DNA of 64,000 bases, taken from assembly GCF_947077765.1 (NCBI RefSeq), contig NZ_CAMTTF010000005.1:57501-121500 (forward strand), read 5' to 3'. This stretch comes from Salinibacter grassmerensis. GTDB lineage: Bacteria > Bacteroidota > Rhodothermia > Rhodothermales > Salinibacteraceae. Positions 839 through 15,646 of this stretch are shown here, piece after piece; position 1 is the first letter of the stretch, and each line of letters starts with the position of its first letter. The position numbers and the translations under genes are program-made. A model generated the notes under the pieces. The model saw nothing but the letters and a program-made list of their open reading frames with translations, searched no databases and was not told where the DNA came from.

Positions 839-1480
839 CTATTCCCTTGCGGATGCTTCCGGCATGGCCGCATCGAGCGCCTCGACCAACGCCTCGACGG
901 ATTGCGCCCCCATCACGGCATGTTCTTGGCCGAAGACGTAGCACGGCACGCCCGTGATGCCTTTTTGCTGTGCCCGGTGCTGTGCCTCGCGAACGGCATC
1001 GGCGCATTCGCTTCCCTCAATCAGCGACCGTGCCGCCTCAGCGTCATGGCCCGCGGCCGCGGCACAGTCTACGAGCACGCTGGGGACCGAGACGTTTCGG
1101 CCGTCCGAGAAGTATGCCCGAAACAGCGCAGTGGCCATCTCTCTTCCGGAGCTCTGATCCTGGGCCCAGAGAATGAGCCGGTGCGCATCGCTCGTATTCG
1201 GTGCCACGTCGATTGCCTCAAAATCGAACCTGAGCCCATCCGCTTCGCCCATTTCTCGAACTCGGTCAAACATCTGCTGCACGCGGCCCCAGTCGCCGAA
1301 CTTTTCTTCGACCACGGAACGAAAGTCGCGCCCCTCGGGCGGCAGGCCCGGCTGGAGTTGGAAGGGACGCCAGCGGAGGGTCGCGTCGAGTTCGGGGCGC
1401 CGCTCGAGCGCCTGTTCCAATCGGGCGCGCCCCACGTAGCACCAGGGGCACGCGATGTCGGCGTAAACGTCAATGGTCAT
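839..1480 (-). CDS. DsbA-family oxidoreductase, FrnE-like
   Basis: A 213-residue cytoplasmic thioredoxin-fold protein. The CPWC redox motif is at residues 11-14, immediately after the first beta strand (DVYADIACPWCYVG). The all-helical insertion and the late segment GITGVPCYVFGQEHAVMGAQ, containing the cis-proline TGVP, are characteristic of the FrnE/HCCA isomerase branch of DsbA. There is no signal peptide, so it should act in the cytoplasm, where FrnE homologues are linked to disulfide handling and oxidative stress. It lies on the same strand as pyrR and a kelch gene, 27 bases downstream of the latter. Confidence 0.88.
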   Translation of the reverse strand: MTIDVYADIACPWCYVGRARLEQALERRPELDATLRWRPFQLQPGLPPEGRDFRSVVEEKFGDWGRVQQMFDRVREMGEADGLRFDFEAIDVAPNTSDAHRLILWAQDQSSGREMATALFRAYFSDGRNVSVPSVLVDCAAAAGHDAEAARSLIEGSECADAVREAQHRAQQKGITGVPCYVFGQEHAVMGAQSVEALVEALDAAMPEASARE

Positions 1481-2836: not shown

Positions 2837-4120
2837 ATGACGCCCTACGAGTTTATACAGCGCTACGACCGTGAGGAGTACAACAGTGATCCCCGGCTGG
2901 TGGAGGGGGAGTTTTTCCCATCGGCCAAGCTCGGCGTGGAGTCGGGCGATACAGTAGGGGTCGTGCTCCTCAACCTGGGCGGCCCCGACGGCGAGGAGTC
3001 CGTGGAGCCGTTCCTCTACAATTTGTTCATGGACCCGGCGATCATCGACTTCTCGGAGGTCGTTTATTTTCAGGCGCGGGGCCGCGTGCGGCAGGCATTC
3101 TCCAAGGTCATCTCGTACTTCCGGTCCAAGTCGGTCGCGGAGGATTACAAGGAGATTAGCGACGACGGAGGCTCGCCCATCAATCCGCTCACCCGCGACC
3201 AGGCCGACAACCTGGAACAGACCCTCAACGAGCAGTACGCCGCGGAGACGGGCGCCACGTTTAAAACGTACATGGCGATGCGCTACTGGGAGCCGTTCAG
3301 CGAAGACGCGGCGGCGCAGATGCAGGAGGACGACGTCGACAAGGTCGTGCTGCTCCCCCTCTATCCCCAGTACTCCAAGACGACGACCGGGGCCTCGCTC
3401 GTATACTGGCATGAGCTGGAGAAGGCGGGCGAAATTCCGGCCTGGCCCACAACCTCGGTCTTCGAGTACGCCACGTACCCGAAGTACATCGAGGCACTGA
3501 GCGACCGAATCGACGAGGGCCTGGAGCGCTTCCCCGACGATGTGCGCGACGACGTGCACCTTCTCTTCAGCGCGCACGGCACGCCCCTCTCGGAAATGAA
3601 AGACCGGGAGGACCCGTACTGCTGTCTCGTCCACTCGACGGTCAAGCACCTGATGGAGCACCGCGGGTTCGACCACGACTTCAGCACGGCCTTCCAGAGC
3701 AAGGTCGGGCCCTCGGAGTGGTTGACGCCCGCGACGGACGACACGGTGGAGGAACTGGCCGAGGAGGACGAGAACGTGCTTGTCATCCCGGTGGCGTTCG
3801 TGACCGACCACATCGAGACGAGCTACGAGCTGGCCATCGAGATTCCGGAGGATCTCGAGGAAGAGGGCGCCCCGATCCCGGAGCACTACGAGGTCATGCC
3901 GGGCCTCAACAGCCACCCCAAGTTCATCGAGACGCTGGCGGACATGACGGCCGCTCAGCTTCAGTTGCCGAACGCGGAGACCCCGACGCCGGCCTCCGAG
4001 CGCCCCTGCTGCCAGGTTCAGAACCGCGACATCCGGTGCCACCAGTGTCAGCACGTGGCCGAGGCCACCGACTGGAGTGCCTCGGGAGAGGAGCAGGCGC
4101 GCGAATTGGAAACGGCGTAG
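2837..4120 (+). CDS. hemH: Ferrochelatase with extended Cys-rich C-terminus
   Basis: Ferrochelatase (427 residues) inserts Fe2+ into protoporphyrin IX as the last step of protoheme synthesis. Family landmarks are VGVVLLNLGGPDG near residue 36, the metal-site His at H247 (FSAHGTPLSE) and the conserved Glu at E327 (DHIETSYEL). Bacterial enzymes are usually 310-350 residues, so this one is long. An N-terminal extension of about 30 residues precedes the core, and a tail carries four cysteines C391, C392, C401 and C404 (CC-x8-CxxC). Some ferrochelatases bind a [2Fe-2S] cluster through C-terminal cysteines; whether this tail does so is inference. ATG at 2837 is preferred over an in-frame TTG nine bases upstream. 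The gene serves the same heme economy as the uptake locus at 37-45 kb. Confidence 0.93.
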   Translation: MTPYEFIQRYDREEYNSDPRLVEGEFFPSAKLGVESGDTVGVVLLNLGGPDGEESVEPFLYNLFMDPAIIDFSEVVYFQARGRVRQAFSKVISYFRSKSVAEDYKEISDDGGSPINPLTRDQADNLEQTLNEQYAAETGATFKTYMAMRYWEPFSEDAAAQMQEDDVDKVVLLPLYPQYSKTTTGASLVYWHELEKAGEIPAWPTTSVFEYATYPKYIEALSDRIDEGLERFPDDVRDDVHLLFSAHGTPLSEMKDREDPYCCLVHSTVKHLMEHRGFDHDFSTAFQSKVGPSEWLTPATDDTVEELAEEDENVLVIPVAFVTDHIETSYELAIEIPEDLEEEGAPIPEHYEVMPGLNSHPKFIETLADMTAAQLQLPNAETPTPASERPCCQVQNRDIRCHQCQHVAEATDWSASGEEQARELETA

Positions 4121-14937: not shown

Positions 14938-15362
14938 ACCAGACTGGTGTAATTCGTGTCGATCTTTGGAGATGTGTAGACGCTGCCCCGACGGAACGGA
15001 AGACTGCAGGGGGTACTTGCGACGATTACAACGTGAGAACCGTCGCGCACAAACGCAACGAGTTCCTGCCCGGTTCATTCTCGGGACAGCGTCTTCGGAG
15101 AACCTACGCATTTCCCGCACAAAAACCGGTCCGCACCGGGGACGAGACAAACGCCGTTCGGGTCAACACGGCATCAAAGATTTCTTCGGCGGACGGCGCG
15201 TAACCTGCGACGTGGCCTCCACTTTCCAGACAGAGGTTAAAGGCCGCGACCGCCCGGGCCGTCCTGATACGAGACACGCCCCGAGACTCTTGGGCTGAGA
15301 TACGGAAAATAACGGAAGTACACCGACGAGAAAAGAGGGACATCGTCTCAGCCCCGACCACG

Positions 15363-15532
15363 GTTATCCACAACGTATCCACAGCTCCCTCCGGGAGACG
15401 ACAATAACAGATATATAAAGATGGCCCAAGTCTCCCGCCGAGGCCCTCATCCCTGGCGAATAAACTCTGTTATTGTTTCAGCTGTAGACCTCTCGCCTGC
15501 AGAGAGGGAAGTTATCCACAATCGGTACACAG
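15363..15532. other. Paired DnaA-box modules flanking AT-rich DNA (candidate replication origin or DnaA-binding locus)
   Basis: Perfect DnaA boxes TTATCCACA lie at 15364-15372 and 15512-15520, both on the + strand. Each belongs to a 22-base module (15363-15384 and 15511-15532, 17 of 22 identical). In each, a second weaker box starts 11 bases after the first: GTATCCACA in the first module and CGGTACACA in the second. Between them the DNA is AT-rich for this genome (AATAACAGATATATAAAG, GAATAAACTCTGTTATTG). The whole 14938-15587 stretch contains no supportable gene. Identity as oriC is inference; neither dnaA nor dnaN is in view. Confidence 0.55.
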
Positions 15533-15587
15533 TTCGTTCATCCGAATAGTCGGTGCCCCCTCAGTCCCGAAAAGGGGCGAGATACAT

Positions 15588-15621
15588 AAAAAAGCCGACC
15601 GGCCCGAGACGACCGGTCGGC
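15588..15621 (-). terminator. Intrinsic terminator after the redoxin gene
   Basis: On the minus strand GCCGACCGG-N10-CCGGTCGGC forms a perfect 9-bp GC-rich stem followed directly by a TTTTTT tract (15593 down to 15588). It lies 26 bases past the redoxin stop codon and should end the two-gene redox transcript. Confidence 0.9.
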
Positions 15622-15646
15622 AGAAGTGAAGTCCCGGCATACCCGC

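Follow-up and report, generated by a model that had tools for sequence, protein, structure and literature searches.

The site characterized here is a composite non-coding element in which DnaA boxes form one part of a larger, rigid arrangement that includes a second motif, AATAACRGA. With moderate confidence, it is best read as a self-contained, autonomous DnaA-control locus, similar in logic to datA and DARS and served by a putative partner protein, X. The element occupies a 170-base non-coding stretch upstream of a UDP-glucose dehydrogenase gene in the window, the 64,000-nucleotide stretch of Salinibacter grassmerensis DNA that was analyzed (C5:57501-121500 of assembly G000, 19 contigs, 3.78 Mb). 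The basis for this reading is the parts of the element, their near-constant spacing and their spread within the family and two genomes of other families, together with the duplicate near oriC that the closest genomes carry and the persistence of the element amid differing neighbor genes.

The non-coding gap that holds the element runs from 14938 to 15646, between the start (14937) of the UDP-glucose/GDP-mannose dehydrogenase-family gene and the end (15647) of a redoxin-family gene. Both genes lie on the minus strand, and an earlier note on this DNA had stated that they face the same way; the interval that it described as gene-free, 14938 to 15587, is so, although the true gap is slightly longer. 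The two perfect TTATCCACA boxes that it reported are located at 15364-15372 and 15512-15520, both on the plus strand. Each was said to be followed by a second box-like element, which holds for GTATCCACA at 15375-15383 (one mismatch), whereas CGGTACACA at 15523-15531 is weaker; strong boxes thus number just two in the window copy, with a single near-match besides. The 22-bp modules are indeed identical at 17 of 22 positions when read by eye, and 76% identical over 25 nt in the comparison. Within the 3.78-Mb assembly, TTATCCACA occurs 14 times against once for the reversed word, with two occurrences at the window site and six in one cluster elsewhere (C1:20504-21138), the oriC candidate of this genome. 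Given this excess and clustering, the DnaA boxes of the site are genuine and above chance. The DNA had also been called AT-rich, which is true only in relative terms (50% GC against 66% in the window), since its most AT-rich 40 bp reaches just 60% AT, compared with 70% in the oriC candidate. A search of the gap against Rfam returned a single match, below threshold. Between the redoxin/DsbD genes and the element, the minus strand has a GC hairpin with a run of T's after it (15594-15621), the probable terminator of those genes.

Table 1. Parts of the element (window coordinates) and polar order of the longer partner word around the terminus of six genomes.
Feature	Sequence	Position	Strand	Remarks
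Motif A	AATAACGGA	15308..15316	+	56 bp upstream of box 1; G000:C5:72808-72816; aligned in G003, G010 and G006
DnaA module 1 (double DnaA box)	TTATCCACA + GTATCCACA	15364..15383	+	boxes 2 bp apart
Motif B	AATAACAGA	15403..15411	+	39 bp from box 1 start
Motif C	AATAACAGA	15466..15474	-	63 bp from B, convergent with B
DnaA module 2	TTATCCACA + CGGTACACA (weak box)	15512..15531	+	boxes 2 bp apart; 148 bp from module 1
Terminus word, G003	TGCAATAACRGA	C1 1602960-2131840	5 minus then 4 plus	
Terminus word, G026	TGCAATAACRGA	C1 1089796-2454566	5 minus then 4 plus	
Terminus word, G036	TGCAATAACRGA	C1	3 minus then 5 plus	
Terminus word, G016	TGCAATAACRGA	C1	4 minus then 3 plus	
Terminus word, G014	TGCAATAACRGA	C1	4 minus then 4 plus	
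Terminus word, G063	TGCAATAACRGA	C1 2517963-2736610	5 minus then 2 plus	outside the class

The gap also contains three AATAACRGA motifs that were absent from the earlier note: a convergent pair (B and C) between the two double DnaA boxes and a third copy (A) upstream (Table 1). Alignment with three relatives recovers the same parts, the conserved blocks other than DnaA boxes being the upstream AATAACRGA and the inverted pair ACAATAACAGA...TCTGTTATTGT between the boxes. The 148 bp between modules correspond to about 14 helical turns and the 63 bp between B and C to 6 turns. The double boxes are conserved to the same degree as the X-motif pair, and the 2-bp gap within each module matches the preference of Escherichia coli DnaA for double boxes with a 2-3 bp gap, as described in passages of PMC11317965.

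BLAST with the 301-bp site gave matches in 6 of 41 genomes, the window's own included; those bearing the site were in three other genomes (69-75% identity), while the matches in L005 and L006 were short and without DnaA boxes. Finding further copies required motif and model searches. A pattern of box, motif and inverted motif matched 16 stretches in the species-genome collection, 14 of them titled Salinibacter, Salinivenus or Bacteroidetes bins. Matches in a Lysinibacillus bin (L042) and a rumen Bacteroidales bin (L050) both failed the layout scan and were dropped as chance; L044 and L048 failed the first layout scan, and their contigs were recovered later as G008a and G002. A sequence model of the element, built from 20 copies, was run against 43 relatives and matches 28 of them at E<=0.1 and 23 at E<1e-6, and 18 of its places at E<1e-7 lie outside the sequences used for building. 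By rank, the 23 comprise 13 of 13 genomes of the genus, 8 of the 14 others in the family and 2 of the 16 others in the order.

A layout scan for the motif pair flanked by DnaA boxes, with one or two box mismatches allowed, is passed by 34 of 41 tabulated loci; G014a, the G021 locus in L140, G015b, G035, G033, G040 and G022b fail. Among these 34, the distance from box 1 to B is at most 2 bp off the median in 32, that from B to C likewise in 33, and that from box 1 to box 2 is 147-151 bp in 31 (exceptions G015a, 211; G002, 141; G014b, 154), a spread that is understated, as many or most loci were picked by searches bounding the spacing. An independent search for convergent pairs, with gaps of 53-58 allowed, found 35 places in 22 of 43 genomes, with gaps of 55-57 only; the reversed word gave 5. 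The model also matches 33 of the 35, and the other two arise within copy 2 of G003 and G010, where a motif overlaps a box. Internal spacing is therefore near-constant despite divergent sequence. A repeat or mobile element was considered and rejected, because the copies have motifs and spacing in common and not spacer sequence. Modules and spacing are thus conserved in other genomes, far beyond the boxes themselves, which is the opposite of the outcome that the earlier note had set against its own reading.

A second copy of the layout was found by motif search, on the other strand, in G000, G003, G010 and G006. It repeats the arrangement of a double box, the motif 39 bp on, the inverted motif 63 bp further and a box at +148; in G000 and G006 its first box has one mismatch. 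Each of the four genomes has this copy 17-18 kb from its oriC candidate. Copy 1, the counterpart of the window site, is about 217 kb from oriC in G003, 194 kb in G010 and 193 kb in G006, and the two copies share one side of oriC in each of the four closest genomes. For G000, where separate contigs carry copy 1 and the oriC candidate, the distance would be about 201 kb if C5 joins C1 as in relatives. G015 has a copy about 224 kb from its ten-box cluster. In G009, the three-box cluster (its oriC candidate) is separated from three copies by about 21, 157 and 509 kb, and the one beside the dsRBD-like gene described below is the 509-kb copy, so the position of the element is not fixed. A copy of G016, at C1:574328, is inside the region of polar terminus sites. 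Origin-side copies are those of G000 (copy 2), G003, G010, G006 and G015, and not the 509-kb copy of G009 or the G016 copy: nearness to the origin is true of the closest genomes and not of every copy.

By analogy with datA and with the preference for double boxes, DnaA would bind both double-box modules, and X at the convergent B/C pair would bend or loop the spacer, bringing the modules together into a single complex. This complex would alter the amount of active DnaA reaching oriC, possibly by titration, by the ATP hydrolysis known from datA or by the reactivation known from DARS. Like datA, copies near oriC would be duplicated shortly after initiation, and beside ribonucleotide-reductase genes the element may additionally tune dNTP supply. 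Of the two functions proposed earlier for the boxes, the titration or regulatory one is supported by the conserved modules and spacing, with the addition of a rigid second motif. Counting against a DnaA-control locus are the 509-kb copy of G009, the terminus-region copy of G016, the 7 of 41 loci that fail the layout scan and the presence of only two strong boxes in the window copy.

Known systems offer partial parallels. In passages of PMC4585315 and PMC10950094, datA of E. coli is likewise non-coding, and is an origin-side locus with DnaA boxes flanking the site of an architectural protein (IHF), at a conserved distance from oriC; its requirement for the boxes, the IHF site and their spacing is described in PMC4585315. 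In the element, boxes surround a motif pair at fixed spacing, where the putative X would take the place of IHF, and some of the copies are origin-side. Unlike datA, the present element has a convergent AATAACRGA pair as its partner motif and double boxes 148 bp apart, and occurs in two or three copies in some genomes, not all of them origin-near. DARS1 and DARS2 of E. coli are also non-coding and hold several DnaA boxes whose spacing is conserved, according to parts of PMC4585315, but their box arrangement differs. The DnaA-box clusters of Bacillus subtilis and Streptomyces coelicolor are named as datA analogues in passages of PMC10950094; by their description, the element differs from such clusters of boxes in its fixed layout of sites for two proteins. 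In the passages covered, detailed accounts of DnaA-modulating loci concern E. coli, and the clusters of Bacillus and Streptomyces are named as analogues; a conserved rigid-blueprint locus here would show distant bacteria using the same logic with other parts. Among the titles and abstracts found in an open-access library, none describes such an element or a terminus motif in this group, which does not imply that none has been published.

The partner motif is also found at the replication terminus. In G003 (a chromosome of 3,551,823 bp and a small replicon of 35,505 bp), AATAACRGA occurs 22 times against 3 for the reversed word: five occurrences are in the two elements, two are on the small replicon and 15 lie elsewhere, 11 of these at 1.60-2.13 Mb, around the skew switch. 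A longer word, TGCAATAACRGA, has a polar order around the terminus, minus strand then plus (Table 1). Under random orientation, the order in the six genomes has a probability of about 2e-9 if they are independent, a figure that shared ancestry weakens. Among the matches listed, all order contigs with both strands (12 by hand count) have minus then plus, G010 being read as a circle. The word occurs in 30 of 31 relatives, with 2-18 copies in family genomes and 0-12 in other families; outside the class, 95 of 111 genomes have 0-3 copies (hand count), and G154, with six, has no polar order. As judged from word positions, the polar TGCAATAACRGA sites have the geometry of a fork trap.

Tus/Ter and RTP/Ter traps are likewise polar on both sides of the terminus. 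The Tus family (PF05472) was over the cut-off in none of nine genomes searched, with a positive E. coli control and a sole weak match in G036 (E 0.135). A tus gene adjoins a Ter site; here, no gene for X common to 45 loci beside the terminus motif was found beyond one orthologous set, and the terminus regions, with much gene order in common, gave no clear candidate for X. Passages of a review, PMC10331603, name fork traps with Tus in Enterobacteriales, Pseudoalteromonas and Aeromonadales, and with RTP in Bacillus. Tyrosine-recombinase genes are located between the innermost terminus sites in G003 and G014 (Pfam) and, by similarity only, in G012, G001 and G016; genes with PF00589 are found at L185 8778-11311 and L188 17822-19003, two side by side in G003. 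The small replicon (G003:C2, 35,505 bp) carries a divergent TTGCAATAACAGA pair at 1040-1048 (minus) and 1145-1153 (plus), just after an ORF that by eye resembles a plasmid initiator, which may be compared with plasmids bearing terminators near the origin. G018:C253 has three tandem TGCAATAACRGA words, 17 bp apart, at 3793-3838.

At the element, motif C in its reoriented form reads CAATAACRG in 31 of 31 distinct copies, a core identical to that of the terminus sites. The shorter motif B, ATAACRG, usually has an A after it and often aaT. The TGC that precedes the core at terminus sites is present before neither motif (0 of 31 C, 0 of 31 B), and the pair is convergent rather than polar as at the Ter sites of fork traps. 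The common core and the missing TGC would be accounted for by a single protein that has two classes of site or by a pair of related proteins. Tentatively, a single putative and undescribed DNA-binding protein of this order may serve both ends of the replication cycle, as a Tus-unrelated fork trap at polar TTGCAATAACRGA sites and in DnaA setting at the element. Here, X would pair on CAATAACRG-type sites between double DnaA boxes, at one to three loci per genome, and termination would thereby be coupled to the next initiation. The partner motif is also a handle on a possible new terminator protein, as a defined binding DNA usable as bait.

In other genera, the element is located upstream of nrdJ (class II ribonucleotide reductase, RNR), with a gene for a conserved dsRBD-like protein of about 120-145 aa on its other side. 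Among the 34 elements, 9 are faced by the nrdJ start, 18 adjoin the dsRBD-like gene and 6 have both, while 13 have neither within the fetched stretches, some of which are short; the window copy adjoins neither gene. A class I RNR large subunit follows the element at G009b and G002 (Pfam) and is probably next to it at G008b and G007b (26% identity, weak match). Such frequent RNR neighbors favor a transcription role over a DnaA-control locus: a DnaA-responsive transcription element, ancestrally for ribonucleotide reductase and the dsRBD-like gene, would later have been copied or left elsewhere, as upstream of the UDP-glucose dehydrogenase gene in the window. E. coli offers a precedent, as DnaA regulates nrdAB (passages of PMC8203912) and the nrdA double DnaA box similarly adjoins a ribonucleotide-reductase gene (passages of PMC11317965 and PMC8203912). 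Unlike that box, the element has a convergent second motif, a variable distance to genes and non-RNR loci, the window included. Measured from motif B to the alignment start, the distance is 224-808 bp for nrdJ and 315-1300 bp for the dsRBD-like gene, a variation of hundreds of base pairs against a near-constant internal spacing, which counts for a self-contained locus. Moreover, the nrdJ domain was not found in any of five genus genomes searched, all of which have the element, whereas it is found in G015 and G016; the element therefore probably arose at an RNR locus and was kept without it. A transcription element of this kind is possible but rather doubtful.

The dsRBD-like neighbor is recognized by its SAYPxPxxFxVxRPxY start (L129 2317-2757, minus strand, and 20 other loci). 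It has no Pfam match; its predicted model (pLDDT 86) weakly resembles dsRNA-binding domains, with no match to the PDB at E<=0.001 (best 4.8e-3). As a candidate for X it is not supported, given this weak likeness and its absence beside the window copy. The nrdJ gene of G015 (L142 3724-7914, minus strand) contains an intein with a LAGLIDADG domain.

Two further readings also involve X. A chromosome-organizing or anchoring site, with DnaA as an accessory, would account for X motifs at the element and around the terminus alike, but it is improbable, the double DnaA boxes being no less conserved than the X pair. Also improbable is a DnaA-gated fork barrier near the origin, where X, presumed to be the terminus protein, would halt forks conditionally at the convergent pair. 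This would fit the core that B and C have in common with polar terminus sites and the distance of copy 1 from oriC in three genomes (193-217 kb), for which a passage of PMC7483579 offers a precedent in the stringent stops of B. subtilis, about 200 kb either side of oriC. Against it, a convergent pair blocks forks from both sides, so no standing polar barrier is possible; the TGC of terminus sites is missing, and both copies are on one side of oriC in the four closest genomes.

That the site is itself a replication origin, one of the possibilities raised in the earlier note, is very improbable: perfect DnaA boxes and a GC content below the surroundings favor it, but the six exact boxes of the cluster between ribBA-like and comEC-like genes (judged from ORFs) are a better candidate, and the site has neither a strongly AT-rich stretch nor a skew switch. 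GC skew is negative on either side (-0.025 left, -0.055 right), with no switch in the window, and the G003 counterpart of the site has no skew sign change. The 6 kb around the six-box cluster of G000 are also negative throughout, with no switch. In G003, sampled in 20 stretches of 20 kb (0.4 of 3.55 Mb), ten samples are positive (0.18-1.82 Mb) and nine negative (1.98-3.44 Mb); taken as a whole, the 1-20 kb sample is negative too. The cumulative-skew minimum of G003, computed over a pair of adjacent stretches that run from 3.541 Mb to 20 kb, falls at about 17.4 kb. It lies 4 kb past the genome's own box cluster (12.7-13.1 kb); the G003 copy of the window site is about 217 kb away.
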